Virus record (IMG/VR): IMGVR_UViG_3300036790_000815 | Coordinates: 1-37,696 of that record | DNA length: 37,696 bases | Origin: a virus | Direction: 5' to 3' (one strand) | Shown here: piece after piece, positions 12,638-34,300 of the stretch | Position numbering within the stretch: position 1 is the stretch's first letter | How the letters are laid out: every line of letters starts with the position of its first letter | Program-made: the position numbers and the translations under genes | The notes under the pieces: generated by a model | What the model was told of the DNA's origin: nothing | What the model saw: the letters and a program-made list of their open reading frames with translations, nothing else | Databases searched by the model: none

Positions 12638-12667
12638 TTGACCATTTTTGAAGGTCCGATTTACTCT
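12638..12667 (+). promoter_or_regulatory. Candidate TTGAC-type promoter giving a leaderless start at 12673
   Basis: TTGACC (12638-12643), 18 nt, TACTCT (12662-12667), then 5 nt to the GTG at 12673. The start codon lies about where transcription should begin, and no Shine-Dalgarno sequence is present. It lies just after the large terminase stop. Confidence 0.68.
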
Positions 12668-12672
12668 CTCGC

Positions 12673-13299
12673 GTGAGCAGCTATCCCGGCATTCTGCCCG
12701 GTTGGATCATCTTTGACCTCGACGCGCCTCACCCGGAGCCGCTAGCCTTCAATGCCGGCGATTCGCTCGCGTGGAATCGCGGATTCGAGCAGTACCCGGC
12801 CTCCGGCGGCTGGACGCTGACTTACGTCCTCAATAATCAATCGCAGAAGTATGTCGTCAGCCCCTCCGATATCACCGTCGACGGTGACGGCTTCTCGGTG
12901 GCGATCCCATCGTCGGAAACCAAGACATGGACCGCTGGCGAATACCTCTGGCTCGCCGTCATGCAGAACACGGTCAATGGCGTCGCCGAGCGCTTCACTT
13001 GCGCGATGGGCCGCGTCGCGATCCAGGCCGACATTCTCGACGCTTCCGCTCCGGTCGATACCCGCGCCCTGGAGGAGATTGCGCTTGCGAACATCAAAGC
13101 GGTGCTCGCTGGCCGCGCCGGCGATGGCGTCCAGGAATACAAAATCAACGATCGCGAGCTTCGCCGCTACAGCATGGCGGAACTCTTCAAGCTGAAAAGC
13201 TACTTCGAGTCGGAAGTCAGGAAGATCCGGATCAAGCACGGCGAAACCGTGCTGCCCGATACCGTAGCCTTCCATGCGGATTGGGGACTTAATGGGTAA
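12673..13299 (+). CDS. gpW-like head-tail joining protein with extra N-terminal domain
   Basis: A 208-residue protein starting at GTG 12673, placed by the promoter geometry. The last ~75 residues (ALEEIALANIKAVLAGRAGD, VQEYKINDRELRRYSMAELF, then a helix FESEVRKIR) resemble lambda gpW, the small protein that seals the portal and lets tails attach. The order terminase, W, portal is that of lambda. The first ~125 residues are beta-rich with a FDLDAPHPEPL start and YLWLAVMQNT, and are additional to the usual ~70-residue gpW; they may be an added decoration or connector domain. The stop overlaps the portal start. The gpW match is moderate. Confidence 0.65.
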   Translation: MSSYPGILPGWIIFDLDAPHPEPLAFNAGDSLAWNRGFEQYPASGGWTLTYVLNNQSQKYVVSPSDITVDGDGFSVAIPSSETKTWTAGEYLWLAVMQNTVNGVAERFTCAMGRVAIQADILDASAPVDTRALEEIALANIKAVLAGRAGDGVQEYKINDRELRRYSMAELFKLKSYFESEVRKIRIKHGETVLPDTVAFHADWGLNG

Positions 13300-15464: not shown

Positions 15465-15474
15465 AACACGGCAT

Positions 15475-15505
15475 TTGACAGCATTTTTCGCTTCCGTGCT
15501 ACCTT
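15475..15505 (+). promoter_or_regulatory. Candidate TTGAC-type promoter, capsid operon, near-leaderless
   Basis: TTGACA (15475-15480), 19 nt, TACCTT (15500-15505), then 9 nt to ATG 15515. Its spacer shares CGCTTCCGTG with the promoter at 9715. No ribosome-binding site fits between it and the ATG, so the capsid mRNA should have a leader of at most a few nucleotides. Confidence 0.7.
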
Positions 15506-15514
15506 CTCCGCGCA

Positions 15515-17515
15515 ATGAGTAAGCGAGAACTTCCGAAGTCTTTGCCGATGGGTGAACGCATCGTCCAGGTGCGAGCGCAGAAGCGCGCCGCAGGCGAGGC
15601 CCCGGCTTATCCTCTGACCATCGCGACCGACCAACCTGTCCGTCGCGGTGGCTGGTACGGCTGGTATTACGAAGTCCTCGGCCATAACGCCGGCGAAGTG
15701 ATCACCGACCGTCTTGCGAATGGCGTCTCGCTGCTCGTCAATCACGATCCCAATCAGCGCGCCGGCCGCATTGAAAACGGCCAGGTTGCCGATGGCAAGA
15801 CGACCGGCGAGGCCCGTTTTGGTACGACCGACTTTGCGCGCTCCGTTCAGCAGGAAGTGGACGACGGCACACTGACTGACATGAGCGTCGGCTATCTGGT
15901 GCACGAATATCAGCGCGTGGCGGACTTCGATCCAGACGATGACGAGGACGAAGACTACATGGGCACGTATCGCGCCGTGAGCTGGGAACCCGTCGAAGGT
16001 TCGCTCGTCGCGATCCCTGCCGATCCCGCTTCCGGCGTCGGCCGCAATATGGAGTCCGACAAAAATCTTCCGCAGTACCCGGTTCGCTTTATCGGCGCTC
16101 CGGCAATTTCTCCCGTAACCCCGGGAAAACAGGAGCAACGCACAATGGCTTCCGTAGCCGTCGTACCCGAAAACACCGCAGCCCCGGTCGTCACGGTGGG
16201 CGCCGATCAGATGAAAGCAGAGCGGATGCGTACCGCGCATATTGCCCTCCTGGCCCGGCAGTACCCGGATATTCTCACCCGCGAAAAGGCGGACGAGTTC
16301 ATCGCCAATGGCAGCGAAGGCTCCGTGGTCGGCAACTTCGTCCTGGAGCAGCAGCGCGCCAAGCAGGTCAACCTCCACTCCGGCTCGCCGGTCACGCTGA
16401 CGGACAAAGAGCGGCGCCAGTATTCCGTGGTGCGCGCAGTTCGGAACATGATCGCCTCGCGCGAGACCGGGAAAGATGAGGGCTGTTTCGAGCGCGAAGT
16501 CTCGCAGGAGATCAGCAAAGTCCTCGGCCGCGACTCCGCCGGTCTCTTCATTCCGACGAATGAGCCGGTCTTCCGGCTCACTTCGCAGGAGATCCAGCAG
16601 CGCGCCCTTTACACGGGCACTTCCGGTGCCGGTGGCGCAACGGTGGCGACGGAGTTGATCAGCTTCCTCGACGTGCTGCGGCCGGCGGTGAAGGTGTTCA
16701 AGCTGGGCGCGGAGTTCATGGGCGGGATGACATCCAACTTCAGCCTGCCGAAGCAGCTTACCGATTCCGACTTCAACTGGGTGGGTGAGAATCCCGGGTC
16801 CGACAACTCGGATATCGATCCGGCCTTCTCCCAGGTGCCATTCACGCCGAAGACGGCCACCGGTTCAACCGCGTGGTCTCGCCAGTTGTTTGTGCAGTCC
16901 TCCGTCGACATCGAAGCAAGGGTCCGCAATTCGCTGGTGCAGCGTGCGGCCATCGCCATCGACAAGGTCGCACTGCAAGGGACAGGCTCCTCGAATCAGC
17001 CCAAAGGCATCCTGAATGCGACGGGTGTTACGGTGCTCGCGCTCGGCACCAACGGCGCGGCCCCAACCTACCAGAACCTGATCGACATGGCGATGGATCC
17101 GGCGACCTTCAACGCCGACCAGCTGGGCGAGATCCGGTATCTGATTACCCCGGAAATCTCCGGCTACCTCCAGGGTGTCGCGAAACTGAGCAACCAAATT
17201 GCGCTTCCCATCTGGACTTTCGGACCGGACGGCCAGGGCTACATCAATGGCCTGAAGGCGGACTGGTCGAACCTCCTGCCCAAGACTCTGACCAAGGGCA
17301 CGGCCTCGGGCGTTTGTCACGCCGGCATCGCTGGCGTCTTCAATGCGCTCACGGTTGCCGAGTGGGGCGCGCTGGAAATCATGCTCGACCCGTACACGGG
17401 CGCGAAGCAGGCGTTGGTGAAGATCATCGCGAACATGATGATCGACGTCGAGCCGACCTATGCGCAGGCCTTCTCCGTGTACCTCGACGCTCTGAACACG
17501 ACCTCCGAGCCTTAA
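15515..17515 (+). CDS. Prohead protease fused to HK97-fold major capsid protein
   Basis: A 666-residue protein. Residues about 15-190 are a caudovirus prohead protease: the block YYEVLGHNAGEVITDRLANGVSLLVNHD holds the catalytic His77, and TDMSVGYLV holds the catalytic Ser124. An acidic/Pro-rich junction follows. Residues about 230-300 are a helical scaffold-like delta region, and the rest is an HK97-fold capsid protein (PVKVFKLGAEFMGG-like, WVGENPGSDNSDIDPAFSQV, FVQSSVDIEARVRNSL, LQGTGSSNQPKGIL). One gene thus supplies protease, scaffold and shell. An internal ATG at 16145, preceded by AGGAG with a 9-nt gap, could give a separate capsid protein of 456 residues. Transcription probably starts just upstream (15475 element). 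Confidence 0.95.
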   Translation: MSKRELPKSLPMGERIVQVRAQKRAAGEAPAYPLTIATDQPVRRGGWYGWYYEVLGHNAGEVITDRLANGVSLLVNHDPNQRAGRIENGQVADGKTTGEARFGTTDFARSVQQEVDDGTLTDMSVGYLVHEYQRVADFDPDDDEDEDYMGTYRAVSWEPVEGSLVAIPADPASGVGRNMESDKNLPQYPVRFIGAPAISPVTPGKQEQRTMASVAVVPENTAAPVVTVGADQMKAERMRTAHIALLARQYPDILTREKADEFIANGSEGSVVGNFVLEQQRAKQVNLHSGSPVTLTDKERRQYSVVRAVRNMIASRETGKDEGCFEREVSQEISKVLGRDSAGLFIPTNEPVFRLTSQEIQQRALYTGTSGAGGATVATELISFLDVLRPAVKVFKLGAEFMGGMTSNFSLPKQLTDSDFNWVGENPGSDNSDIDPAFSQVPFTPKTATGSTAWSRQLFVQSSVDIEARVRNSLVQRAAIAIDKVALQGTGSSNQPKGILNATGVTVLALGTNGAAPTYQNLIDMAMDPATFNADQLGEIRYLITPEISGYLQGVAKLSNQIALPIWTFGPDGQGYINGLKADWSNLLPKTLTKGTASGVCHAGIAGVFNALTVAEWGALEIMLDPYTGAKQALVKIIANMMIDVEPTYAQAFSVYLDALNTTSEP

Positions 17516-17536
17516 TCGGGAGGTTAGTAACCCGCG

Positions 17537-17558
17537 GGGGCCGGCGGAATCCGGCCCC
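17537..17558. terminator. Strong GC hairpin after the capsid gene
   Basis: GGGGCCGG (17537-17544), loop CGGAAT, CCGGCCCC (17551-17558): a perfect 8-bp GC stem 22 bases after the capsid stop. No U-run follows, so it may stabilise the capsid mRNA 3' end or partly attenuate transcription into the connector genes rather than terminate fully. Confidence 0.55.
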
Positions 17559-17590
17559 ACCAAACTTCAGCGAGCGAGGATGAAACGTAT

Positions 17591-19108: not shown

Positions 19109-19249
19109 ATGGATCCAAAGATTCGCGAACTCTTTGTGCAGTTACTCATCCTGGTTCAGGAGTCGGCGGACGTCGGCGCCGGCCTGATGCCCCGTGCCGA
19201 GCTCACCACCCACGTAGAGATGGTGAGGCAGGCAATTGACAAGCTTTGA
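19109..19249 (+). CDS. Small helical hypothetical protein
   Basis: A 46-residue protein from ATG 19109 with GAGGA upstream, entirely helical (IRELFVQLLILVQESADVG, then VEMVRQAIDKL). It lies between the terminator after the major tail gene and the promoter for the tail chaperone. Its TGA is part of the TTGACC -35 element. No function is known. A promoter for it is not obvious, so it may depend on read-through of the terminator. Confidence 0.5.
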   Translation: MDPKIRELFVQLLILVQESADVGAGLMPRAELTTHVEMVRQAIDKL

Positions 19250-19275
19250 CCGAAAGCCCGCAAGTGAGGTACGAC
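19246..19275 (+). promoter_or_regulatory. Candidate TTGAC-type promoter, leaderless start at 19281
   Basis: TTGACC (19246-19251), 18 nt, TACGAC (19270-19275), then 5 nt to ATG 19281. The TGA of the upstream small gene lies inside the -35. GAGG lies 11 nt before the ATG, too far for a good ribosome-binding site. Confidence 0.65.
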
Positions 19276-19280
19276 ACTGC

Positions 19281-19733
19281 ATGGTTGCCGATCCGGTACG
19301 CGCGCACATTCCCATCGATCTCGATCGGAAACGCATTTTGTGTTTCGATCACCGCGCCACGTTTCTACTGATGCAGCGCTTCGGGTTTCGGCCCATGGCC
19401 TCTCTCTATTGGCAGGTTGCGGATCCGGATGACCCCAAAAAGAAGATATTGCAGATTCGCTCGATCGACGCGCTGCTTTATTTCCTCTGGGCTGGATTGC
19501 AGCGGGACGCGGACGACGCCGGCGAGACGCTGTCTCTTGAGCAAATACAGGAATTCGTCAATCCGCTCACCATCGAATCGATCTTCCTTGCGCTGATCGC
19601 AGCGTTGAATCGCCCATTAAAAAAAAAGGTGACCGCAGAGAACGCCGGAGCAAGCGCGCCGGCCGAGCGCGAACCCAGCACGAGTTCGACTGGGAGGCAG
19701 CACTTCGATTCGCCTGCGGAAGGATCGGACTAA
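19281..19733 (+). CDS. Tail assembly chaperone, gpG-like
   Basis: A 150-residue protein. ATG 19281 is chosen because of the promoter geometry; the frame also contains an upstream start at 19236 that would overlap the previous gene. The sequence HIPIDLDRKRILCFDHRATFLLMQRFG, with IRSIDALLYFLWAGLQ and EQIQEFVNPLTIESIF, is typical of tail assembly chaperones encoded just before the tape measure. The last part after the A9 run (KVTAENAGASAPAERE) is low complexity, as in the short product of such gene pairs. The slippery sequence at 19622-19628 lets a fraction of ribosomes enter the next frame. The chaperone coats the tape measure during tail assembly and is not in the virion. Confidence 0.82.
   Translation: MVADPVRAHIPIDLDRKRILCFDHRATFLLMQRFGFRPMASLYWQVADPDDPKKKILQIRSIDALLYFLWAGLQRDADDAGETLSLEQIQEFVNPLTIESIFLALIAALNRPLKKKVTAENAGASAPAEREPSTSSTGRQHFDSPAEGSD
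19622..19628 (+). other. Slippery heptamer for -1 ribosomal frameshift
   Basis: In a run of nine A (19619-19627), the heptamer A AAA AAG is read in the zero frame as AAA-AAG. This is the most efficient class of -1 slippery site known in E. coli. A -1 slip enters an open frame that encodes the conserved tail-chaperone extension. Confidence 0.85.
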
Positions 19734-20011: not shown

Positions 20012-22370
20012 CGGTATTGTGATCCAGATTCAAGGCGACGGCGCCGGGGCGGCCGAGGCGCTGCGGACGATCGAAGAGAAGATGCGCCAGTCCGCCGATG
20101 CTGGTCGCGAAATGGGCGCCACGTTCGGTGAAGTCGGGGAGCGCATTCAGCGGGCATTGGAGTACACGGGCATTTACTTCGGCATCCGAGAGATGACCGA
20201 AGGCATGAAAGACGCCATTTCTTCCGCTGCCGAATTTGGCGAAACGATCGAGCATGCAGCCCTGAAAACGGGGATGAGCGCTCAAACGCTGTCGGTACTT
20301 CACTATGCCGCCGATCTCACCGGAAGTGATTTTGAACAGTTGGTAAAGGGTGCGACGCGACTCGGTAAAACACTTTCCGATGCAGCTGACGGAAATCAGC
20401 GCTTAAGTCTCCTCTTTCAATCGATGGGGATTAACGCGAAGGATTTGGCATCCCGATCTGATGGCGTCGAAATTGCTCTGCGTAAGATTGCAGAACGCCT
20501 CCAGGAGGGTGAGTCCCCGGCCCGCCTCAATCAACAGTTAATGGAGGCCATGGGTAGGTCTGGCTCCGAGCTTGCTCCGGTACTGGTTAGCCTGGCGGAA
20601 CACTTTGATGAATTCGCCGCCGGAGCGAAAGAGGCTGGCGTGTACATGGACGATCTATCAGCTGGCAAGCTGATGGAGGTGAACGAGCAGATCAAGCAGC
20701 TCAAAGAGAGTTGGACCGGGCTAACTCTGGAACTGACAGAAAGCTTCGCGCCTGCCATCAAGGCAGCGTTGCAAGACTTTAGCGGACTCCTGCAGATCAC
20801 TCGCGAGAGTCCCGTGGGTAGCATGAAGGCTTTTCTCGGGAGCGCTTTGGGCATCCCATCGCTGGAAAACTCTGGTATCAGCGATCTCGTCAAAGCTCAC
20901 GACGCCGCCATGAATGCGGTCTCTAATCCAACAAAACCCACGAAGTATGGCGATACCGGTACCGAGATGGACCCGACGATGATGGCGCGGTTAAACGTGC
21001 AATTATCGGCGGACCGGCGTCAACTCGACGAGGCCAAAGCAGCTTCTGAGGCCATGCTCGCCATTTTGCAGGCTCAGCATTCCGCCGGACTCGTCTCCAC
21101 ACAGGCGTTCTATGCTGAAAAGCTCGGGATCGAGGAAGACGCCATTCAAGCCGAAATGCGCTCTCTCATCAAGGAGCGTGATCAAATCGCTTCCGCCGCC
21201 AAATCCGCGCCTTCCGGAAGCAGCCAACAGTATGAAATGAAGGCAAAATTAAACCAGGTAGAATCCCAACTCGATCAGCTTCAGGAGCGTCGCCGGTCGA
21301 TAGAGGGTACGCTTGCGGCGGAAAAGACTGGCGCCCTTCAAACAGATGCTCTAGCCCAACTGCGCTTGGAAACAGAGACGAGCCGCGCCGCTATTGAGTT
21401 CGAGAAGAATAAGGCCTCGGTTATTATGGCCCTCCTCGATTCCCAACACGAGGAAGGGCTTTTGAGCGACCGCGAATTCTATAATCGGCGACTCTCGATC
21501 CAACAGGATGCCCTGGATGCCGAGGCCGCAGCGATCGGTCGTCAGGCGGCCGAGTTGGATGCGCAACAGCGGCAACTTCCAGCCGACAGCCCGAAACAGA
21601 TTCAATTGAAAGAACAGCAAGTTCAGCTTGAAACAGAATTGCAGAGGTTGAGCGCCGAGTATGCGAAGAACGAGTCCGACGCTGCTGAGGCTCAATCGAA
21701 ATCCATACAACAGTCTGCGGCAATCCTCGCCAGCACGAAACGCCATGCCACTGGTGGATCTGGAGATAACGAGGATGCGAAGTACCTGAAAACTCAAGGC
21801 TATGATATGGCCACGTCGGAAACGCAGGACTTTCTTCATGGAATCGAAGACCTGAGCGGCAAACATCCGCTGCAACGTCTGGTCGATAACATGATTCAGG
21901 ACCTGGATCGCTACGCCGATGCAATCATCGAGCACGAATTCATTGGTCCAATGCTGCAACAGATTTTCGGGCTGAATTCGCTTGCCGCTCAGAATCCTGG
22001 ATGGCTGCAGTCGTTGAACGCTTCGACGGCTGGACTGCAAACACAGTCGCCCGACCTAACGGAAACCATTCCAGGCTTTTCCGATGGTGGAGAACCTGAC
22101 GGCCTGTCGATGGTCGGCGAAGCGGGGCCGGAACTCTTCATGCCGAAGGGGCCCGGGACCATCCTCCCGAATGATCTGCTGAACTCAATCGCCGGTGGCG
22201 GCGGGGCGCCAAATGTCACGATTAACAACGTGAACAACAGCAGTTCGCCGGTAACGATGAAAGCGCCGCAGGTCAGTTATGACGCTCAGGCGAAGCAGTT
22301 TGTCATCCAGACGGTGATCGAAGACATGCAGGGCGGCGGACCGATGAGTCAGGCGCTTCGAACTGGTTGA
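20004..22370 (+). CDS. Tail tape measure protein
   Basis: A 788-residue protein starting at ATG 20004, overlapping the chaperone frame. It is predominantly helical with long coiled-coil-like stretches (residues about 325-580, many Gln/Glu/Ala and LDQLQERRRSIE). The C-terminus has the usual GFSDGGEPDGLSMVGEAGPE then LFMPKGPGTILPN signature. At about 0.15 nm per residue the tail would be roughly 120 nm long (inference). The N-terminal half includes AEFGETIEHAALKTGMSAQ, the usual start of the central domain. The gene's last 22 bp overlap the inverted Imm gene, tail to tail. Confidence 0.93.
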   Translation: MPNGIVIQIQGDGAGAAEALRTIEEKMRQSADAGREMGATFGEVGERIQRALEYTGIYFGIREMTEGMKDAISSAAEFGETIEHAALKTGMSAQTLSVLHYAADLTGSDFEQLVKGATRLGKTLSDAADGNQRLSLLFQSMGINAKDLASRSDGVEIALRKIAERLQEGESPARLNQQLMEAMGRSGSELAPVLVSLAEHFDEFAAGAKEAGVYMDDLSAGKLMEVNEQIKQLKESWTGLTLELTESFAPAIKAALQDFSGLLQITRESPVGSMKAFLGSALGIPSLENSGISDLVKAHDAAMNAVSNPTKPTKYGDTGTEMDPTMMARLNVQLSADRRQLDEAKAASEAMLAILQAQHSAGLVSTQAFYAEKLGIEEDAIQAEMRSLIKERDQIASAAKSAPSGSSQQYEMKAKLNQVESQLDQLQERRRSIEGTLAAEKTGALQTDALAQLRLETETSRAAIEFEKNKASVIMALLDSQHEEGLLSDREFYNRRLSIQQDALDAEAAAIGRQAAELDAQQRQLPADSPKQIQLKEQQVQLETELQRLSAEYAKNESDAAEAQSKSIQQSAAILASTKRHATGGSGDNEDAKYLKTQGYDMATSETQDFLHGIEDLSGKHPLQRLVDNMIQDLDRYADAIIEHEFIGPMLQQIFGLNSLAAQNPGWLQSLNASTAGLQTQSPDLTETIPGFSDGGEPDGLSMVGEAGPELFMPKGPGTILPNDLLNSIAGGGGAPNVTINNVNNSSSPVTMKAPQVSYDAQAKQFVIQTVIEDMQGGGPMSQALRTG

Positions 22371-23017
22371 GGCGTGTTGACTTCGCCACCGGCCGCCCAC
22401 GCAAGAGCCACCACCCAACCAATTATGGTCCACCCTAGAAATAAGTTGAGAACAAACACTCCTCCACTCGCCTTGCACTTTCGGTGGGTCGCCACTGCAA
22501 CCGGAACAAAATAAACCAATAGGCAAAAAAAGAAGATGATTAGGGTGCCCACAGCTTCCCCATTCGGGGCTGAACCCGGCGTGGCATATGCCGCCGTGGA
22601 TGCTTCCGTATCCGCTATGCGAACCCTTTGGGAGGCTGGCACAGAGATGGAAGCATCTCGCATTGCAAGCGTGGTCGCTCCACATGGAAGATAGCGCTTA
22701 ATCTGCGCTGGACCCAGAGTGTCATCGCCTTCCGTCCTGAAGGCCGACGTATAATCCCAAATTGGTCCGGACTTGTTAGGGCCGAGAAACCACACTTCTA
22801 CGTGTCTGTTGGCATATATAAGCTTTCTTTGCCAATAGTAGACGGGGTTCGAGACTGTTCCCTGGTTTACAGTTTCTAGCAAATCAGAACTCGGTAGTCC
22901 GCACGCGTATATAAGCGCCCGCGCATCGTCCCGATTGGCCCATTCTGAAAAATGCTGAGCCTCAGCCCAATAGCTAGATAAGACGAGCAAACTAGCCGCG
23001 ACCAATCGTTTCTGCAT
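22349..23017 (-). CDS. Secreted superinfection-immunity protein (Imm-like)
   Basis: A leftward gene of 222 residues from ATG 23017, with GGAGGGG just upstream. The N-terminus is a signal peptide (MQKRLVAASLLVLSSYWAEA). About 110 residues of an outside domain follow, with two Cys (YACGL, YLPCG). Residues about 155-210 are two membrane segments with the Imm_superinfect signature: LLVYFVPVAVATHRKCKA, then FVLNLFLGWTIIGWVVALAW. Imm-type proteins, first known from phage T4, sit in the inner membrane and stop a second phage from injecting DNA. Local base composition is lower in GC than the neighbours, and the gene is inverted within the tail module, both typical of a moron acquired by transfer. It has its own promoter. 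Confidence 0.85.
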   Translation of the reverse strand: MQKRLVAASLLVLSSYWAEAQHFSEWANRDDARALIYACGLPSSDLLETVNQGTVSNPVYYWQRKLIYANRHVEVWFLGPNKSGPIWDYTSAFRTEGDDTLGPAQIKRYLPCGATTLAMRDASISVPASQRVRIADTEASTAAYATPGSAPNGEAVGTLIIFFFCLLVYFVPVAVATHRKCKASGGVFVLNLFLGWTIIGWVVALAWAAGGEVNTPQPVRSA

Positions 23018-23037
23018 AACCCCTCCGAAACGCGATC

Positions 23038-23065
23038 AGTGTACCGCTTGTGGCCACAAAGTCAA
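23038..23065 (-). promoter_or_regulatory. Promoter of the Imm gene with internal palindrome
   Basis: On the minus strand: TTGACT (plus-strand 23060-23065), 16 nt, TACACT (plus-strand 23038-23043), a good sigma-70 promoter about 20 bases before the start codon. The perfect palindrome TTGTGGCCACAA (23048-23059) fills most of the spacer and is a candidate operator. It resembles the TTGAC/GGTAC elements of the plus strand but with a shorter spacing. Confidence 0.65.
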
Positions 23066-23102: not shown

Positions 23103-23846
23103 TCAGAGCTTAACCCGGACTCCGCTCCCCCGCAACAGGTCATTCGCGATCGTCTCGGTGGCGGCCTTACTGAAGTTACTCGGGAAGTTGGCCTGGGCGG
23201 TCCGCTGAACCTCCTCGAAAGCTGGGAAGATAGCCGGGATGTGGGCGGAGCGGATGAGCATATACATCGGCATCGCATCGCGGGAACCCAGCGCGCGCGC
23301 CATGATCACCTTGTTTCCGCTCTTCAGGGTCGCCGCGAAGAAGACATGCCCCATGGTGACAAACCCTCGCACGGTCGGGCCCTCGGGCCCACCGCGCCGG
23401 CGACTCCCGCGGCTCTTGATGTTCTGCAGAAGCTGTTGCGGCCTGGCCCAGCCCGGGATGATCTGGCCGACGAGCGCCGTCAGATATCGGGTCGGAACGC
23501 CAATGTAAGCGCCGCCATCGACGACCACCCGGCCGGAGGGCGTCTTCGTCCCGCTGTCCTCCTGCCGCGGCAGGTAGTCGGGGGCCCCGGTGCGGCGGTT
23601 GGCGGTGTCGGTGTAGACGGCGGCGGTTAGATCCTGCTTGGTCGCCATCCGGGTCAGGGTGCGGCTTCTGGTCCAGTCGTTCCGCAGTTTGAAGACCCGC
23701 TCCTCGAGAGTGCGCGTCTGATTCCGCGCGTCGATGGCGGTCATGGTGAGCGCCCGGGCGATGGTGAACGGGATCTGGTTCTGACGCAGGTCCGCGAAGG
23801 CGCGCAGAGGACCGTCGATGTCGACCTTGGCGGAGAGCACTGGCAT
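23103..23846 (-). CDS. Putative minor tail protein (gpZ-like), leftward
   Basis: A 247-residue leftward protein from ATG 23846, with GGGGGA about nine bases upstream. The N-terminus (AKVDIDGPLRAFADLRQNQI then FTIARALTMTAIDARNQ) is like the start of phage minor tail/completion proteins of the gpZ type, and the end (AFEEVQRTAQANFPSNFSKA) is also common in them. The middle has MGHVFFAATLKSGNK, GSRDAMPMYMLI. The opposite strand has poorer protein-like composition. In lambda-like phages this gene reads with the structural genes, so its inversion here, next to the Imm moron, is unusual. The family match is moderate. Confidence 0.65.
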   Translation of the reverse strand: MPVLSAKVDIDGPLRAFADLRQNQIPFTIARALTMTAIDARNQTRTLEERVFKLRNDWTRSRTLTRMATKQDLTAAVYTDTANRRTGAPDYLPRQEDSGTKTPSGRVVVDGGAYIGVPTRYLTALVGQIIPGWARPQQLLQNIKSRGSRRRGGPEGPTVRGFVTMGHVFFAATLKSGNKVIMARALGSRDAMPMYMLIRSAHIPAIFPAFEEVQRTAQANFPSNFSKAATETIANDLLRGSGVRVKL

Positions 23847-23864
23847 ACGCCATCATCCCCCGAT

Positions 23865-23894
23865 TTGACCGAAATCGGCAATTGGGGGCACCTT
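23865..23894 (+). promoter_or_regulatory. Candidate TTGAC-type promoter (variant -10) inside an inverted repeat
   Basis: TTGACC (23865-23870), 18 nt, CACCTT (23889-23894), a variant of the TAC core. The -35 sits in a perfect inverted repeat, CCGATTT/AAATCGG (23860-23866 and 23872-23878). It lies in the gap between the leftward gene at 23846 and the rightward tail genes, and could serve 23912 onward. Confidence 0.5.
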
Positions 23895-23911
23895 GCGCGC
23901 GGCCATGGGGG

Positions 23912-24118: not shown

Positions 24119-24288
24119 ACGGCTGCAAACACAATCCCGAGCACCCATGTTGGGTCTGCCGCCGCCTTCGGGAGCATCCGTTGATCATCCTGAGGTCACC
24201 GGGGGCTCCGATCGAGCCACGCTATTGGCAAGACCCGCCTCCCGATAACCGCGAACGCGATCTTCCCGCCAGTCTGAAGACGCGATGA
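24115..24288 (+). CDS. Small Cys/His-rich protein
   Basis: 57 residues from GTG 24115, overlapping the previous TGA (GTGA). The start GCKHNPEHPCWVCRRLREH offers Cys and His ligands (C-x1-H, H-x1-C, C) for a single small zinc site. The rest is Pro-rich (GAPIEPRYWQDPPPDN). Function unknown. It ends within the ATGA overlap with the ASH-domain gene, so the three genes are probably co-translated. Confidence 0.5.
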   Translation: MNGCKHNPEHPCWVCRRLREHPLIILRSPGAPIEPRYWQDPPPDNRERDLPASLKTR

Positions 24289-25001: not shown

Positions 25002-25180
25002 TGCCTGCCCCTCAGCTGTCCCGCGCAACCCTGGAGAAGGTCCGCGCTGCGATTGTTCGCAGTGAGCGTTCCCTGCAGGTCGTTGCGGAGAGGGCGAAGT
25101 TTCTGGCGGACACGCGCTCCGCAATCGAGGCCTCGCAGTCGAGGCTCTACGCCATCCTCGCAACGCAGCCGGTCAATTGA
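25001..25180 (+). CDS. Small helical hypothetical protein
   Basis: A 59-residue protein starting at ATG 25001, overlapping the upstream TGA by one base. It is a single long amphipathic helix pattern (LEKVRAAIVRSERSLQVVAE then RSAIEASQSRLYAIL), likely a coiled coil. Its TGA stop is part of the -35 of the next promoter. No family is recognised. Confidence 0.5.
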   Translation: MPAPQLSRATLEKVRAAIVRSERSLQVVAERAKFLADTRSAIEASQSRLYAILATQPVN

Positions 25181-25206
25181 CCGAATCCGCTGAAGTGGGG
25201 TACTGA
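25177..25206 (+). promoter_or_regulatory. Candidate TTGAC-type promoter, leaderless start at 25212
   Basis: TTGACC (25177-25182), 18 nt, TACTGA (25201-25206), then 5 nt to GTG 25212. The spacer begins GAATCC, as in the promoter at 26426. No usable ribosome-binding site lies between it and the GTG. Confidence 0.7.
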
Positions 25207-25211
25207 TTCGA

Positions 25212-25616
25212 GTGCCTACCCCGTCCTTTCCGGAGCTGACCCGCGCCTTTGCATTGCGCCAGACCGAAGATCCGGTCGATCCCACGTTGCGCTCCCCCAT
25301 GGAGAACGGCATGGAGGAGACTCGGCCGCGCTTCACGCGCAACCGGCGAACCTTCCAGGTGTCGATCGATCTCCTGAGTGCCTCGGACAAGGACGCGCTG
25401 GACAGCTTCTATCAGGATTGCTCCGCGGCGGGTGCAGCCTACGGCGGCCAACCGTTCACGCTGCTCGATCCGCGCAACCTCGACAATCCCCAAACCCTGA
25501 CCGTGCGCTTCGCCGCCCTGCCGAAGTACTCCGACGCCGGCTGGATCGGCGCCGACGATAAAGGCAACGCCGCGGGCTATCGCTGGAACTGCCAGTTTCA
25601 AGTGAGGGAAATGTGA
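25212..25616 (+). CDS. Minor tail protein, gpM-like
   Basis: A 134-residue protein from GTG 25212. Motifs RSPMENGMEETRPRFTRNRR, FQVSIDLLSASDKDALDSFY and GGQPFTLLDPRN, then LTVRFAALPKYSDAG, match the beta-sandwich minor tail protein that precedes gpL in lambda-like tails (gpM or DUF2460-like neighbours). It forms part of the tail tip. Overlap with the gpL start (GTGA) supports coupling. The exact family name is the less certain part. Confidence 0.75.
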   Translation: MPTPSFPELTRAFALRQTEDPVDPTLRSPMENGMEETRPRFTRNRRTFQVSIDLLSASDKDALDSFYQDCSAAGAAYGGQPFTLLDPRNLDNPQTLTVRFAALPKYSDAGWIGADDKGNAAGYRWNCQFQVREM

Positions 25617-26305
25617 GCACGGTCCGGCCGCCGCTCTCGCTGCTCTCTGTCGTCGCCAATATCGAACGCCACAACCTGGCGAGCGGTGATCCGTGGATCC
25701 TGCTCATGGATGTCGAGTGGCCTGGGAATTCCGCCAGCGATCCCGGCGTGACCCAGCAACACGTCAGGCTGGCGCGCAATCTCGATCCGATCACCTTCGA
25801 CGCCAATGACGGCAATGGTCCATGCGTCTACGAGCCCTTCAACTTCGAAATGGGCGAGTTCAACATCAGCTCCAACGGAAGCGTGCCGCAACTGGAGATT
25901 CAGGCCTCCAATGTCATGCGGGTGCTGCAGAGGCTGATTGAGCAGTACGCCGGCGTGGTCGGTGCCAACCTATACCTCTACGTCGTGAACACCGCAAACC
26001 CGGACGGTGAACCGGACCTGACGCTGCAATTCACGATCCTGGGCAGCACCTCGGATGCGAAGCTGGTTCACCTGAAGCTGGGTGCGAGTTCTCCGATGCG
26101 CCGTCTGTTCCCGCTGCTCATGTACTGGCCCAACTTCTGCATCTGGAAGTACAAGTCTCTCCAATGCGGCTATACGGGCGCGCTTCCGACCTGTAGCCGG
26201 ACGCTCGACGGCACGACGGGTTGCGAGGCCCACAACAATCAACTGAGATTCGGCGGGTTCCCGGGGATCGATACAAACGGCGCACAGGCCGCGGGGGTGG
26301 TGTGA
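25613..26305 (+). CDS. Minor tail protein L (iron-sulfur tail-tip protein)
   Basis: A 230-residue protein. The C-terminal part has four cysteines, C176, C185, C194 and C204, in the pattern FCIWKYKSLQCGYTG, PTCSRTLDG, TTGCEAH, followed by NNQLRFGGFPGI. This is the signature of lambda gpL, in which the four Cys hold a [4Fe-4S] cluster. The N-terminal beta domain (residues 20-150) matches too. gpL connects the tail tube to the tip protein J. The protein appears intact, and its order (M, L, K, J) is that of lambda. Confidence 0.92.
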   Translation: MSTVRPPLSLLSVVANIERHNLASGDPWILLMDVEWPGNSASDPGVTQQHVRLARNLDPITFDANDGNGPCVYEPFNFEMGEFNISSNGSVPQLEIQASNVMRVLQRLIEQYAGVVGANLYLYVVNTANPDGEPDLTLQFTILGSTSDAKLVHLKLGASSPMRRLFPLLMYWPNFCIWKYKSLQCGYTGALPTCSRTLDGTTGCEAHNNQLRFGGFPGIDTNGAQAAGVV

Positions 26306-26442
26306 TGGGGATTAATTGGGATTGCACGCGGGCCCCGAAGGGTTGGTATTGCGCGCGTGTCCGAGGACACCAAGGCCCTTGCGCCGCTTGGCCTCGCTGG
26401 TGGAAGCGGCTGCAACTCTGGTTCTTTGACCGAATCCCCTGA
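26305..26442 (+). CDS. Small phage protein with GW-C-GH-GPCA motif
   Basis: A 45-residue protein from ATG 26305, overlapping the gpL stop. The core DCTRAPKGWYCARVRGHQGP followed by CAA is a short Cys/His motif seen in many tiny phage proteins of unknown role. A Trp-rich tail follows (WPRWWKRLQLWFF). It may bind zinc through three Cys and one His. The -35 of the next promoter lies within its last codons. Confidence 0.65.
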   Translation: MGINWDCTRAPKGWYCARVRGHQGPCAAWPRWWKRLQLWFFDRIP

Positions 26443-26455
26443 AACGCGGTACTTA
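26426..26455 (+). promoter_or_regulatory. Candidate TTGAC-type promoter, leaderless start at 26461
   Basis: TTGACC (26426-26431), 18 nt, TACTTA (26450-26455), then 5 nt to GTG 26461. The spacer begins GAATCC as at 25177. No Shine-Dalgarno sequence is present upstream of the GTG. Confidence 0.7.
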
Positions 26456-26460
26456 GACGG

Positions 26461-26934
26461 GTGCCAACCCTCGCCCAAACGGGCTTCGCACCTGTCCCAG
26501 CGAAGAAGCGGAGCGCGCTGCCCATCCGGAAGCCGCCCGCGCTGTCGCCCGCCCTCTTCTCTGATCTGATCGGCAAGCCCTTCGTCGACGGCGGCCGCGG
26601 CCCCGCAAATTACGACTGCGTCGGTCTGGTGATCGAGGTGGCCAAACGCCTCGGCAAAACCCTCCCCGACTACCTGAGCAGCGAAACCGAATTTCATGCG
26701 CAGATGGCCGCGGACGGTGCAGCCCTCGCCGACCTGCCGCGTGTCGGCGCCGCGACGGCTGGAGACATCGTCCTCCTGCGCACCGGTCCCGCTGAGCATC
26801 ACGTCGGAGTCATGGTCGATCGCTGGCGCATGATCCATGCCTGGAAAGGCATTGGCGTGCTGGTCGAGCGCATCAACTCGCCGCTCTGGCTGCGCCGCAT
26901 CCTCGGCTTCTATTCGCTCGGGGCTGCGAAGTGA
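26461..26934 (+). CDS. NlpC/P60 tail peptidase, gpK-like
   Basis: A 157-residue protein from GTG 26461. NlpC/P60 catalytic residues are visible: Cys53 in NYDCVGLVIEV, His114 in EHHVGVMVD and His126 in MIHAWKG. In lambda, gpK has this domain and is part of the tail tip; such peptidases can cut the peptidoglycan stem peptide to help the tail cross the wall. This protein carries only the peptidase and not the N-terminal JAB-type domain of lambda gpK. The stop overlaps the J start (GTGA). Confidence 0.88.
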   Translation: MPTLAQTGFAPVPAKKRSALPIRKPPALSPALFSDLIGKPFVDGGRGPANYDCVGLVIEVAKRLGKTLPDYLSSETEFHAQMAADGAALADLPRVGAATAGDIVLLRTGPAEHHVGVMVDRWRMIHAWKGIGVLVERINSPLWLRRILGFYSLGAAK

Positions 26935-29900
26935 TCCGCCTGATCTGGATCCGGAATCCCCTGCAGCCCTCGAGCACCCGTGAAATCCGTGAGATCGCGC
27001 CAGTCGATGGCCAGCATTTGCTCGGCTGCATTTCCCATCACCTCTACCACGACGGAATCCCTCCGTCTGAGATGGTGATTTCACTGAACGGCAAAATTGT
27101 TCCCACGGAAGAGTCGACCAGGTTCTTCCCGCGCGATGGGGACTGCATCGTCGTGGCGCCGCTGTTGAGTGGCGGAAGCGTCTGGCGGACGCTGGCGCAG
27201 GTCGCTGTCATGGCGGCTTCTGTGGCGATGATGGCCGTCCCCGGCCTTCAACTTCCCGGGGTCCTTGGAATGTCGGCTGCGCTGACGACGAGTATCGCGG
27301 CCGGTGTCGTCTCGATCGGCGGGAACATGCTGATTCAAACCTTCCTGCCAGCTCAGCCGAACACGAAGGCGCAATCGGCCAGTTATGCCTTCGACGGCCC
27401 TCAGTCCCTGGCGCAGTCGGGCACGGTGATCCCGAAGGGTTACGGGAAGTTCATGTCGGGCGGCAACATCATTTCCAGCTTTGTCGATGTCGAGGGTTCT
27501 GATCAGTACATCAACGCCTTGATTTGTTTCGGCTTCGGCCCCGCGCGGACCATCGCCGATATCGAGATCAACCAAAAGGCCATCAGCACCTATCAGAACG
27601 TGTATTACTACACCCGCGCCGGCACCAACGCCCAGGAGCCAATCGCCGGATTCAACCGCATCGTGAACGGCTATCCGCAGGATGTCGAGGTGACCTGCGC
27701 TGGTGGGCCTGTCGTCGTGCCCGGGACCGGGACGCAAACCCAGGCGCTGCAGGTCGACGTGCAGTTCCCGGAGGGCGTCTATTACGTTTCCGGCGATGGA
27801 AACGACCTGCCCTGCGCGATCATCTACAAGGTCGAGTACTCCATTTCCGGACTGAACGCATGGCAACCGGTGCTGCAGCCGCTTGAAACTCAGTCGGTCA
27901 TCGTCTACAACGGCGACGGAACAGTAAACCCCTTCGCCAGCCCCGCCTGGGTTCTGATTCCGAACAATCTCCCGGCCGGAAGCGGCGTCTGCATCGACAC
28001 CTCCGGCAATGGTTCCGACCCGAACCCTGCCGGCCTCCACGCTGGTCAGGCGGGGTCGACCACGTCGAACATTACCACCGTCGATCCGGATGGAACGACG
28101 CACACCGTCTCGCAAACCTTCTTCGGTGAATGGCAGCCGGTCGATCTCACGCTGCCCTTTGTCGAGGTGCTGAGCTGGACCAACGGCTGGACGAAATACG
28201 TCGCCGACACAACGCAGGTCTGCTACAACCGCGTGTCGATCTATGGACTTCCGGTCAATAAATACGACGTGCGGGTGACGAAATACGGGTCGAACAATGC
28301 CAGCAACACGGTCAGCCCCGGAGACTATTTCAGCCCGAAGCGCGGTCAGGATGTCTGGATCCACACCGTCAACGAGATCACCTATCAGGATCTCGCCTAT
28401 CCCAACATGATTCTGGTGGGCGTGCGCGCGCAGGCGACCAACCAAATCCAGGGCGCCAATCTGAACGTCACGGCCGTGATCGAATACGGCCTGCGGACTC
28501 TCGACAACAACGTGCTGCCGGCGGCGTTGCAGGTCTTCGAGGAGGACAATCCGGCGTGCGTCGCGGCGGATATGATGCTCGACGACCTCTACGGCGGCGG
28601 GGAGTGGCCCGGGATCGCGGCGCCTAACATCGAGCGCTTCATCGATGAGTGGGTCTCATGGGCGGAGCTCAACGACGAACTGGTCGACGACGGCAACGGC
28701 AATTCCATCCGGCGCCACGTCTTCAACGGGATCTTCGACAACGAAGACAATCTGTGGAATCAACTCAATGCCGTGGCGCAGATGTCGCGCGCGGCCATCA
28801 TTCCGATGGGGCTCGATTATGGAGTCTTCGTCGATCAGGCCGATACGCCGGTGCAGCTGTTCTCCATGGGAAACATCATTCAGGACAGCTTTCAGGAGCA
28901 CTGGATGATGCTCGACGACCGCGCCAACCAAATCGAGGTGCAGTTCGCCGATTCCACGCGCTACTACCGGCAGGACAATCCCATGGTCTATATCGACCCG
29001 GCGGACATGGCCTCCGGCGCGATCATCAAGAACGTTCGAATCAACGGGAAGGGAATCACGCTGCCCGCGCAGGCCTGGCATTTCGGCCGGTTCAAAGGAC
29101 TCTGTAATAAGCTTCTGCTCCGCCTCGGGCAATTCCAATGCGATGTCGACGCGATCGCCTGCCGGCCGGGGAATCTGATCATCCTGCAGCATGACGTGCC
29201 GCAATGGGGATGGGGCGGACGGCTGCTGACCGGAAACTCCGTCGACTCCATCGGCGTTGATCGCTCGGATCTGCCGTGGGACGGAACGACTGCGTATAAC
29301 GTGGTCGTCCTCTTCGCCGCGGTGAAGCGCTACGTCGGGACGGTCACCTCGGTCGCAACCGATGTCGATGGCACCGGTCTGACGATCGGGACGACGGTGG
29401 GCCTGTCCTTCTTCGACAATGCCAACCGGGTGACGCGCGCCGTGATCAATGGGAAGGATTGCACTATCCTGTCGGCAACTCCCTCCTCGATCCTCGTGAC
29501 GGTTCCACCGGGATTCACGCCAACGACCGGGCAGCCCTACGCGCTCTATGACACCGACGTTCTGGAGACTGCGACGGTCTCCGGTGTCACTCCGGGGCCC
29601 GAGGGAACGCAGGTCGTCAAGCTTGGAACGCCCTTCAGTCAGGCGCCCGACGACTATGCGACCTATTTCTACGGCGTTCCGGGTTCCCAGAAGATTGTCC
29701 GGGTGACGCGCATCGCGAAGGCCAGCGACATGCGGTCGACGATCGAATGGATCGATTATGACCCCGGCTGCTATATCGACGCCACGCCGATTGTCGGCGA
29801 GACGAGCGCCCAGGTAACGACCAATCCCGGCGTGACGAACCTCCAGGCAGTCGAGCAATTCGAAGTGCAGAGCAGTGGAAGCTACGAGGACTTCATCAAC

Positions 29901-31346
29901 GTGACGTGGATCCCCGGCATCAACACGGCCGGCGTCGGCATCTACGGCTCTTTCGGCCAGGCAACGCCGCAAATGCTCACTCGGATCGAGGGATATCAGT
30001 CGAGCTGGCGCTTCCAGGTGAGTCCGGGAGTGACATGGAAGATTTGGGTCGTGGGCTTCGACGCCAACGACAACTATCAGGCTTGGTCCGCGGCGCCCAA
30101 TGTGACCATCACAACCGAGGGAATCACGACCAACCTGCTCGCTGACTCGAGCTTTCAGAGCGGTTTCGTCTATTGGAATCTGACCCCGCGCGCCGGCGAC
30201 ACGCTGGTGCCGACCTTCCAGAATGATGGCGAGGCGCAATACGCGGTCGCCGGTTCCACGCTGGCGGCCGCAACGCCCATCCTGAATCAGGTGGTCTCGC
30301 CTTCCAACTGGCAGGTCGGCCACGATCTGATGCTCTCCGCCTACTTTGAAACCACGGGAACGCCCTCGGGGAACTTGGTCGCGGACATCGCCTTCTACTC
30401 CGACGCCGGCATCACGCTGATCAGCGCCGCCCGCGCGGTGCTGGTGATGGCTGGCGCAGCTCAGACTCTCGTCCGCGTCTTTTGCGCTTCGACCGTAGTT
30501 CCCATGGGAACGGCGCAGGTCCGGGTAAGGGTGCTGGTCGACGGAACGGTGAGCATTCCCGTCGCATCGGGCTTTACGGTGAGCCATCTCCTGCTCGAGG
30601 CTCCGGCGGTCGGGCAGACGGTTCCCTCGGTCTGGGCGGACATCGACGACACCGGGCGCGTGACCGACGTCTTCCAGTTGGGCAGTAGCAGCGCGATGCG
30701 CGCTCAGGCCTCGGCTCTGCCGGTCGGGACGGGCAGCTTCCCCTTTTCCTACACCGACACGACCGTCACGATGGATTGGAGTGGGCTTCAGATCCAGTGG
30801 CCCGATGGCGGCGTGACGGAGATCGTCAACGGGTCGGAAGCGGTCACCGGCCTCACCGCCATGACGAATTACTTTGCCTATCCCTACTTCGACATCGTCA
30901 ATGGCGGAGTGAAGTTTGTCGCGCCCGCGGCGCCCGTCGGCTCGCCAGCGCTTCTCACGACGGTGCACGACCCCGTCGCTGATGCCGCTTGTAAGTTGGA
31001 TGGACGTGTTCCCCTCGCGCCCGGTGGCCTCTCGGTCATCACGGCGGCGAGCGGTGGAAGCGGGTCTGGCTCCGGCGGTGGAAGCGGGTCTGGCTCAATC
31101 AACGTGAGCGTGACGCCCAACCCCGGACACCTCTCGGGATTGCCCAGCGTCACGGCATTTACAGCCACCGTCACCGGCACCGCCATGACCGCTGTGGTCT
31201 GGAGTTTGGGCCCGGGGTCGGTGGGAACGATCAGCGGCGGGGGAAGCTGGGATCCGGGATCGCCACCGACGCACGGTTCCGCGACAATCATCGCGACGAG
31301 CGTCGCCAACAGCGCATGCCAGGGGTATGCCTCCGTCAGCTGGTAA
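26931..31346 (+). CDS. Tail tip/host-specificity protein J-like
   Basis: A 1471-residue protein from GTG 26931. The first ~80 residues (INPLQPSS-like start, LISLNGKIV-like, DGDCIVVAPLLSGG) look like a ubiquitin-like gpI/J N-terminal region. A hydrophobic helical hairpin (residues about 80-145) and the classic J segment with VIPKGYGKFMSGGNIISSFV and INALICFGFGPARTI follow. The middle holds the tip-ring domains, then fibronectin-like and lectin-like beta domains. Near the C-terminus is a Gly/Ser linker (around residues 1372-1390), then a bacterial Ig-like domain (VTPNPGHLSGLPSVTAFTAT, TAVVWSLGPG) that looks acquired from host surface proteins. It binds the host receptor. The long leftward frames inside it are shadows. 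Confidence 0.93.
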   Translation: MIRLIWIRNPLQPSSTREIREIAPVDGQHLLGCISHHLYHDGIPPSEMVISLNGKIVPTEESTRFFPRDGDCIVVAPLLSGGSVWRTLAQVAVMAASVAMMAVPGLQLPGVLGMSAALTTSIAAGVVSIGGNMLIQTFLPAQPNTKAQSASYAFDGPQSLAQSGTVIPKGYGKFMSGGNIISSFVDVEGSDQYINALICFGFGPARTIADIEINQKAISTYQNVYYYTRAGTNAQEPIAGFNRIVNGYPQDVEVTCAGGPVVVPGTGTQTQALQVDVQFPEGVYYVSGDGNDLPCAIIYKVEYSISGLNAWQPVLQPLETQSVIVYNGDGTVNPFASPAWVLIPNNLPAGSGVCIDTSGNGSDPNPAGLHAGQAGSTTSNITTVDPDGTTHTVSQTFFGEWQPVDLTLPFVEVLSWTNGWTKYVADTTQVCYNRVSIYGLPVNKYDVRVTKYGSNNASNTVSPGDYFSPKRGQDVWIHTVNEITYQDLAYPNMILVGVRAQATNQIQGANLNVTAVIEYGLRTLDNNVLPAALQVFEEDNPACVAADMMLDDLYGGGEWPGIAAPNIERFIDEWVSWAELNDELVDDGNGNSIRRHVFNGIFDNEDNLWNQLNAVAQMSRAAIIPMGLDYGVFVDQADTPVQLFSMGNIIQDSFQEHWMMLDDRANQIEVQFADSTRYYRQDNPMVYIDPADMASGAIIKNVRINGKGITLPAQAWHFGRFKGLCNKLLLRLGQFQCDVDAIACRPGNLIILQHDVPQWGWGGRLLTGNSVDSIGVDRSDLPWDGTTAYNVVVLFAAVKRYVGTVTSVATDVDGTGLTIGTTVGLSFFDNANRVTRAVINGKDCTILSATPSSILVTVPPGFTPTTGQPYALYDTDVLETATVSGVTPGPEGTQVVKLGTPFSQAPDDYATYFYGVPGSQKIVRVTRIAKASDMRSTIEWIDYDPGCYIDATPIVGETSAQVTTNPGVTNLQAVEQFEVQSSGSYEDFINVTWIPGINTAGVGIYGSFGQATPQMLTRIEGYQSSWRFQVSPGVTWKIWVVGFDANDNYQAWSAAPNVTITTEGITTNLLADSSFQSGFVYWNLTPRAGDTLVPTFQNDGEAQYAVAGSTLAAATPILNQVVSPSNWQVGHDLMLSAYFETTGTPSGNLVADIAFYSDAGITLISAARAVLVMAGAAQTLVRVFCASTVVPMGTAQVRVRVLVDGTVSIPVASGFTVSHLLLEAPAVGQTVPSVWADIDDTGRVTDVFQLGSSSAMRAQASALPVGTGSFPFSYTDTTVTMDWSGLQIQWPDGGVTEIVNGSEAVTGLTAMTNYFAYPYFDIVNGGVKFVAPAAPVGSPALLTTVHDPVADAACKLDGRVPLAPGGLSVITAASGGSGSGSGGGSGSGSINVSVTPNPGHLSGLPSVTAFTATVTGTAMTAVVWSLGPGSVGTISGGGSWDPGSPPTHGSATIIATSVANSACQGYASVSW
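31051..31097 (+). repeat. 24-bp direct repeat encoding a Gly/Ser linker
   Basis: Two copies of a 24-bp unit, at 31051-31074 and 31075-31097, identical over 22 bases, encode a flexible Gly/Ser linker between the J body and a C-terminal Ig-like domain. Identical DNA copies, not just similar protein, point to recent duplication at a domain junction. Confidence 0.8.
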
Positions 31347-31347
31347 G

Positions 31348-31377
31348 TTGACCTGTTTGGCGAAATCGTCATAGCGT
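31348..31377 (+). promoter_or_regulatory. Candidate TTGAC-type promoter for the fibre gene, near-leaderless
   Basis: TTGACC (31348-31353), 18 nt, TAGCGT (31372-31377), then 9 nt to ATG 31387. The -10 core is a TAG variant. It begins just after the J stop, and no Shine-Dalgarno sequence is present. Confidence 0.6.
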
Positions 31378-31386
31378 GCTGGCGCT

Positions 31387-34300
31387 ATGCTACGTCGCCG
31401 CCTGCCCCTTTTTGTCCTGCTCTTCCCGTGGTTCGTCTTTCCGAACGGCCACTGTCAGTTTCTCAACCTGACGGCTTCCCACATCCAGGACCCGTCGGGG
31501 AGCGCACTTACGGGGTCTTTGTGCGTTCGGCCCGTCAACAATAGCAATTTGCCTCTGCAGGCGGTAGCGGCGGGAAGCGGTGGAGGGCAGCTCTCGACAA
31601 ATGAGATTTGCTCGCCCGTGACTAGCGGCTACCTGCCGGGAACCTGGCAAACACTCGATCCCTCGGCGGGTGGAACGAATCTAACGCCAGATCCGGTGAT
31701 TACTGGATTCACGACATGGACCCAGCCGGGCTCATGGCTGACCACGCCCGTTTCTTCACTGGGACTTCCCAGCCCGGTGAACGCGTTGACGGCACCGTCG
31801 AGTTCCAGCGGCACAACGCAGGGATCGTCGAGCGCTGCAATTACGGTTGTCCCCGGCCAAACCTATACCTTCAGCGCGGGCATTAACGCCTCGGGATCTG
31901 GCGTGACCGGCGCTTCGCCGGAATGGCTCATCTCGTCGAATCCAAGTGGCACGGTCAATTATGCATTCATCGCCGTCAACGCCGGGACCACGGCTACTAA
32001 GACAGTGCAGTTCACGGCCCCGGCGGGCGTGACGCAGGTCTATATTCGGGCCAATGTCAATTCCTCCACAATTGGATCCGGGGCGGACATCTTCTTTTAT
32101 GAGCCGCTGCTGCAGGCCGGCTTCAGCCAACTCGCCGATACCTCGATCGCGAATCCGGCCAATATGTGCTATCGCTTCACATTGCGGAATGCGACCGGCG
32201 CCGCGATTTATGCGGCATCCTGCGCGCAGCCATCGAATGCCACCGCGAATAGCGGCGCTCAGGCCTACTGGTGTTCAACGGTCTCCGGTGCCACGACCTG
32301 CAACTACGATCTGTTTCAGCCGCCATCGACCCCGCTGACGGTGACGAGCAACACGGGTCCGGTCGGCGCCACCGGACCAACCGGACCAACCGGGCCTACG
32401 GGTCCAGCCGGCAATGCCAACTTTAGCAGCACCACGACCGGGCAATACATGAAGGCCACAAGTTCAACGACTGCGGTCGGCGTCAACACGTCGCAGGTCT
32501 TGCTTGATATCAGTGGCGCACCCTCGACGAGCGGCCTCACGACGCAGCTGCCCCTTACAGGCTGGACGGCGATCCACGTCCACGACGACTCCTGGGGCGC
32601 ATGCGTAGGGGCAACGGGCGGCAACGGGAACTGTTACTGGGGTCTGCTGGCTACGGATCTCGGCCTGTCTTTTACCAGCAATGTCACCAACTATAGCCTC
32701 GGCGGCGACGAGATGGCCGACATGACCAACAAGATCTACCAGGACGAGAATCCCGGCGCGGCCACGACGACACTGACGCTGATCGGCAACACGGTCAATG
32801 ACGCGAACAACGCCGGCGGCAACTATTATCAGGCGAGCGGGGGACTCGGCCGGTGGCAGGGGAAATATTCAGCGGCGTTTCAGTCCGCGATGATCGAGTT
32901 GTCGATTCCTTCGACGTACAAAACGATTCCGACGGCCACCACGGGATGGAGCAGCGACACCACTTATGCCGCAAACCACGGCGTTTCCTGTACTGGTGGC
33001 AGCGGCGGCTGTGCGGCTTTGGTGCTCAATTACACGACGAGCAGCGTCGGGCAGAGCCTCGCGATAGCGTTTCGCGCTATCAATGGCAACCTTGGGACGA
33101 TGACCTGCACGGATTCGGGGCTGAGTGATGGAGCGACGGTCTATCTCGCCAACACAATGACGCCGTGGGTCGCGACGGCGAACGGGACCAACGAATTCCC
33201 GATGGTCTATGTGTGGAATGATGCGACTCGGCTTTCTGGAAGCCATTCGATTACCTGCAATGTGACTTCCGCCAGCGGTCAGACGAACAGTGTCCTATGG
33301 TCTGCTCCGATGCCCCCGACTGCCGGCGCCAATCCGCTGTGGGTGTGGGGCGCGCCGCCTCAACTCAACGATTCAAAAAGCATGGTGACGCAGGCTTACA
33401 ACGACATCGCCGCGAATGCCGCGGCGGACGTTCAGGCGATGGGGCTACCTGTCAACTGGATAGATCTACGGAATTGCCTCTATGGCACCGCGGCTCAGGC
33501 GGCTGCTTCCCCGAACCAGCAATTGCATCTGAATAACAGTGGATATGCTGCCCACGAAGCCTGCATCAAGGGTACGCCGCGGCAACCTCATCAGAAGCTG
33601 ATTGATACCAGCCGTCACGCGCCCTTCGCGCGCGTGACCGCGGCCGCCGATGCCGTCTCAGCTGCCGATCGGGGGTTTGCGATTTTCTACAACAATTCGA
33701 GCGGCGTCGCGGTGACTTTGCTGCCGAATTATATGTCGACGGTCCAAGGCGCCACGTCGGGCACGACTGAATCGGGCCCGGGTAACTCCGTTCGGCTCTT
33801 CAATGGAGGCACCGGGCCGGTGACGATCACCGGAGCTTCAGGGACGACCCTCGTCGGCGTGGCGGGAAATCTTGTCCTCAAAGCAAATGCCTGGGCCGAA
33901 TTAACTCCTCTCTATCAGGGTCCGTCCACCTTTTGGGTAGTCACCGGTGCAAGTCCTGGGCAGGGAATCATCATCTACAAGCTTGTCACCGGTACCACAT
34001 ACACGGGTACCTGCACGGACAACGGTCTCCTCTTCAACGGAGCGAGCCCTGTATACACTCTTCCCACCGCTTGCCAGAGCGCCGGCGCAGGAGGAGGCGG
34101 TGCACCGACGGTCAATATCATGTTTGTCGGTACAGGACTTCTCACGACCTCGGGAGATTCGACCGGCAATGTCAAAAACCTCGTGATGCAAAGTGGAGAC
34201 GACGCCACGATCTGGCCGTACGCGGCTAGCCAGTGGTTCACCTCAGCGCGAAGCGGATGGAATAACTATCAGGGAGTGAGTCCCTCGGCGATGGTCTTGG

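Follow-up and report, generated by a model that had tools for sequence, protein, structure and literature searches.

Head and tail genes of virus record IMGVR_UViG_3300036790_000815 are preceded by short cassettes in which a sigma-70-like promoter runs at a fixed distance into an ATG or GTG. These cassettes are best explained as combined start units for transcription and translation, which very probably give rise to leaderless mRNAs or to mRNAs with leaders of 3-4 nt. Support for this reading is strong at the starts 12673, 15515 and 25212 (rigid spacing, in-frame indels after the start, no Shine-Dalgarno (SD) site, only ATG or GTG), comes from one close relative each at 26461 and 31387, and does not extend to 19281, which is not conserved. 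The window, that is the whole viral record of 37,696 bases, is the genome of a siphophage (Table 1). No cultured phage is close, the portal being ~34-36% and the capsid <30% identical among the matches listed. Neither a prophage nor a close relative in culture came up in scans of genome contigs, in integrase searches of plasmids and phages, or in searches with capsid, tail and fibre.

Table 1. Genes, cassettes and other promoters of the window (d, distance in nt from the first T of the -10 element to the start codon)
Feature	Position	Strand	Layout	d	Remark
Integrase	8484-9704				
Terminase	9885-12624				
Head-tail joining gene	12673-13299	+			phrog_5774
Portal	13274				
Protease-capsid fusion	15515-17515	+			
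Tail protein	19281-19733	+			
Tape measure	20004				
Tail tip genes	25212-31346				
Virion structural protein	25212-25616	+			phrog_384
Minor tail protein	26461-26934	+			
Putative tail fibre, long gene	31387-34944	+			
Glucosaminidase-type lysin	35147				
Cassette	12638..12675	+	TTGACC-N18-TACTCT-N5-GTG	11	head-tail joining gene 12673
Cassette	15475..15517	+	TTGACA-N19-TACCTT-N9-ATG	15	capsid fusion gene 15515
Cassette	19246..19283	+	TTGACC-N18-TACGAC-N5-ATG	11	tail protein gene 19281
Cassette	25177..25214	+	TTGACC-N18-TACTGA-N5-GTG	11	virion structural gene 25212
Cassette	26426..26463	+	TTGACC-N18-TACTTA-N5-GTG	11	minor tail gene 26461
Cassette	31348..31389	+	TTGACC-N18-TAGCGT-N9-ATG	15	fibre gene 31387
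Cassette	23844..23881	-	TTGCCG-N18-GATGAT-N5-ATG		gene 23846-23103, minor tail protein
Weak candidate	23865..23907	+	TTGACCGAAATCGGCAA, ATG 40 nt on		plus half of the minus-cassette element
Leadered promoter	34945..35006	+	SD CGGAG, then TTG 35004		SD energy -6.6
Leadered promoter	23015..23065	-	SD GGAGG, then ATG 23017		SD energy -10.0; superinfection-immunity-type gene 23017-22349

Promoter-to-start distances in the window

According to the sequence-only reading, six late operons begin with leaderless start codons 11 or 15 nt from a TAC-type promoter element. All six distances prove exact when counted from the first T of the -10 element to the start codon; for the fibre gene this element, at 31372, is TAGCGT, not TAC. 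TTGAC-N18/19-TA sites number 10 on the plus strand, against a mean of 1.23 (maximum 6) in 1000 dinucleotide-preserving shuffles, and none lies on the minus strand of the window. Seven plus-strand sites have an ATG or GTG at T+10 to T+16 (0.23 expected from the shuffles), and in six of the seven the frame runs for 100 codons or more (mean of 0.02 and never more than 1 in shuffles). The same reading had denied these starts a good SD site. This holds for the conserved families, where SD energies are zero or at background, and has to be qualified for the window's own 19281 (GAGGT) and 25212 (GGGGT). Each of these is preceded at ~10 nt by a G-rich run with a nominal SD score of -8.1 and -7.2 kcal/mol, respectively; the run overlaps the -10 region and would be absent from the mRNA.

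A further plus-strand site is a weak candidate. It opens ORF 23905-24288, for which d is 16 if CACCTT is taken as the -10 element and for which no homologue was found in the set of relatives.

Not every promoter of the phage is of the fixed-distance kind. Strong SD sites had been noted at other genes of the genome, and leadered promoters with good SD sites are indeed found at 34945 on the plus strand and at 23065 on the minus strand. The latter serves gene 22349-23017, which encodes a superinfection-immunity domain (PF14373; phrog_1039) and is likely a moron within the tail operon. Near the right end, at 37332 (+), a promoter resembles that of the capsid gene (GCTACTTTCCTGCGCA) and has no start codon at the fixed place. 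Another promoter, at 9715 (+), with the sequence TTGACTCG...GTGGTAC, lies ahead of the terminase genes. In three relatives (L005 3685, L006 503 and L012 2549), a short inverted repeat rich in G+C (GAGGGCC...GGCCCTC-like) comes after the terminase promoter and may be a terminator or a 5' hairpin.

Conservation in related phages

The fixed distances hold in related phages and are deeply conserved for 12673, 15515 and 25212; the relatives behind all cassette counts are phylogenetically dependent. Searches with the capsid yielded 28 loci, with identities between 78% and ~30%. Thirteen capsid genes (at least 54% identity) have the promoter and then ATG at equivalent spacing, the ATG of L036 being read from the sequence in place of the automatic start pick; the block is TACCTTCTCCGCGCA-ATG in the window and TAACAATCTACGCGAC-ATG in a more distant group. 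The head-tail joining gene is preceded by the cassette in 10 phages, with GTG or ATG 11-13 nt past the start of the -10 element. SD energy is 0 at 11 of the 13 capsid starts and at most of the 10 head-tail starts, so that random ATG/GTG codons (median -2.85) score stronger than the majority of them. Outgroup capsid genes (VP882, RcCronus, S-LBS1 and a Roseomonas prophage) show no TTGAC within 60 bases upstream. Long frames located within 60 nt of TTGAC-N18/19-[TC]A number 37 in the window and its relatives; 31 of them start 11-16 nt after the -10 element and none 25-60 nt after it. These frames are non-independent, since some source phages are closely related.

Two relatives carry insertions between promoter and gene. 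In L003, two short frames separate the promoter from the head-tail gene. The first, of 18 codons, begins with the GTG at the leaderless position and leads by a GTGA overlap to a 25-codon frame, and this in turn leads by another GTGA overlap to the head-tail gene. In L006, with an insertion ahead of the capsid gene, the leaderless ATG opens 14 codons that end in TGAATG at the capsid start. Such overlap chains, seen in these two cases, are expected if ribosomes enter at the 5' end. L005 is an exception, in which the gene apparently begins ~10 nt into the predicted transcript; read by eye, the 299-codon frame opened by the GTG next to the promoter seems spurious, and another frame starts with an ATG 22 nt past the -10 T.

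The profile search for gene 25212 gave 42 loci; the distinct relatives compared number 29, at about 40-99% identity. GTG stands at the same aligned position in 28 of the 29, 35-37 nt after the -35 element, and the majority sequence is TTTGCCCGAATCCGGCAATTTGCGGGATAATCTCGCG-GTG. In-frame indels, 3, 6 or 9 bases long, begin directly after the GTG, while the block before it barely varies in length. The median SD energy at these starts, -3.3, equals background, and that of the next gene in the operon is mostly -7 to -12, its start having been picked among ATG/GTG codons near the stop, which biases somewhat towards strong sites. This comparison constitutes an internal control within the same phages and the same operon. 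The codon of this family (A2, L052-L092) is never ATG in the 28 relatives, and that of the divergent partner gene is mostly ATG. An interpretation of the block as coding sequence of an upstream gene was rejected, no reading frame being conserved through it, and the short frame that recurs upstream of the block sits opposite the divergent minus-strand gene.

Conservation is more restricted at the three remaining starts. The cassettes of 26461 and 31387 recur in L034, the nearest relative possessing these genes, where the former is the same and the latter retains TAGCGT with an identical 15 nt; the remaining homologues of 26461 start differently. Homologues of 19281 start at other places, in several cases following a normal SD, and its cassette is possibly due to chance or to recent gain.

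Divergent starts 54-56 bp apart

A seventh fixed-distance start, missed in the first reading, is the minus-strand ATG 23846, located 35 nt after TTGCC on its own strand. Its gene belongs to phrog_1924 (E 1e-26). In 20 sequences of this family, the window included, the start lies 35-37 nt from TTGCC, with 16 ATG and 4 GTG codons and a median SD energy of -2.2. In many relatives the gene adjoins the 25212 gene in opposite orientation, and the two starts are 54-56 bp apart in 20 of 23 placed pairs (54 once, 55 in 11 and 56 in 8 pairs). A palindrome-like TTGCC-N6/7-GGCAA has the two -35 boxes as its halves, and thus each box lies inside the spacer of the other promoter. This motif has 28 strand hits in the 25212 family (14 sites, both strands) against 6.6 in shuffles. 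A full palindrome over the 55 bp is weak, with 9-base arms averaging 6.3 matches against 5.3 in shuffles. In the window, the divergent genes are ~1.3 kb apart with other genes in between, and each retains its own cassette. One gene in this stretch, 24285-25001 (+), has ASH/Cep192-type domains, which may be taken as a weak hint at an Acidobacteriota host.

These features suggest a nested divergent leaderless promoter, in which TTGCC-N6/7-GGCAA may be bound by a dimeric regulator of the phage and a single 55-bp element would set transcription, its direction and both translation starts. The proposal is tentative, being plausible and somewhat short of probable.

Proposed mechanism and alternative explanations

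Compared with the sigma-70 consensus (TTGACA, 17 +/- 1 bp, TATAAT), the -35 element of the window, TTGACC, is close and the spacer is 18-19 bp. In the -10 boxes of the cassettes, the second-position A is nearly invariant and the last T often kept. Many relatives have TTGCC or TTCGCC as the -35 element, and several have weak -10 boxes. The cassette would be described as a sigma-70-like promoter (TTGAC/TTGCC, 18-19 bp spacer) fused to ATG or GTG. Such boxes point to transcription by the host RNA polymerase, and no sigma factor or polymerase occurs among the proteins searched. RNA synthesis would begin at the start codon where the distance is 11-13, and 3-4 nt before it in the capsid and fibre genes (distance 15-16). 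With promoter and start codon fused, the first gene of each virion operon would be read from a leaderless mRNA, its 5' AUG or GUG probably being recognised directly by the ribosome, and later genes of the operon would rely on SD sites or stop/start overlaps. Gene content suggests late timing of the cassette operons. The weak -10 and -35 elements of many relatives, together with the conserved spacer, allow the conjecture that an activator acts at the cassettes.

An unlikely alternative is that the promoters are real and the translated mRNAs originate further upstream, with SD-less initiation by way of S1, low structure or coupling with the preceding gene. SD-less genes do occur in many bacteria, and the late genes mostly point in one direction, which makes read-through likely. 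Yet such mRNAs leave unexplained why the promoter-start distance is precise to one base while a strong SD precedes the following gene of the operon, and for the divergent starts the gene upstream lies on the opposite strand. Still less probable is that the conserved block is an operator or another DNA element instead of a promoter, its distance reflecting repression or coding overlap. The TTGCC-N6/7-GGCAA half-sites of the 25212 family would suit an operator, but the lack of a conserved frame through that block speaks against coding overlap, the hexamer spacing and the -10 A fit a promoter, and the head-tail and capsid blocks keep the same layout without any palindrome. Chance or mis-called start codons, conceivable in DNA of 60% GC where ATG and GTG are frequent, are contradicted by the shuffles and by conservation across dozens of phages; they have next to no likelihood overall and are excluded for 12673, 15515 and 25212.

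If the cassettes are indeed units for leaderless initiation, a route of translation often deemed minor appears to carry the head and tail genes of an uncultured phage group, among them that of the capsid, a protein required in large quantity. As a regulatory element, the 55-bp divergent unit would be unusually compact. The cassette is also a strict, searchable signature, with which gene starts and hosts of uncultured phages could be predicted better.

Comparison with known leaderless systems

Leaderless genes are widespread, accounting on average for 13.3% in Acidobacteria (3 of 3 genomes) and 39.4% in Deinococcus-Thermus (PMC3160421), and tests in Deinococcus have addressed the -10 element immediately ahead of the ORF (PMC12340547). 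Among the nearest parallels are the TA-led genes of Actinobacteria, Deinococcus-Thermus and Acidobacteria, with a -10 element ~11-12 bp before ATG/GTG and no SD (PMC3160421, PMC12340547). The geometry has its precedent there, the first T of TANNNT lying ~12 bp before the start. In the phages, the -10-like element is 11-13 nt from the start (15-16 for capsid and fibre), SD energies are zero or at background in the capsid, head-tail, 25212 and minus-strand families, and only ATG and GTG, never TTG or CTG, occupy the fixed position in these four families. Unlike the TA-led genes, which are cellular, the cassettes are used repeatedly in phage virion operons, have a strong -35 element and a conserved spacer, and are kept over dozens of phages.

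Among phages, the Cluster O mycobacteriophages (Corndog) have SigA-like promoters PL1, PR2 and PL2 with predicted leaderless mRNAs, of which PL1 and PR2 are divergent (PMC4351075). In contrast to the present pair, the Corndog divergent region is AT-rich, and the accessible text of that source describes no 54-56-bp cassette with mutually nested -35 boxes. Leaderless mRNAs known in E. coli from lambda, P2 and Tn1721 (cited in PMC4633059) likewise stem from mobile DNA and have the start codon at their 5' end, but the cases are few. Leaderless GTG is reported to give <10% activity in E. coli; conservation of leaderless GTG in the present phages implies that the host of the window phage should read 5' GUG well, and initiate efficiently on it as on AUG, if the proposed mechanism is true. 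A literature search, which covered few subscription papers, found no report of conserved systematic leaderless starts of virion operons or of a nested divergent cassette. Leaderless genes as such are already known, phages included; what is new is their conserved and systematic use in virion operons, together with the nested divergent cassette.
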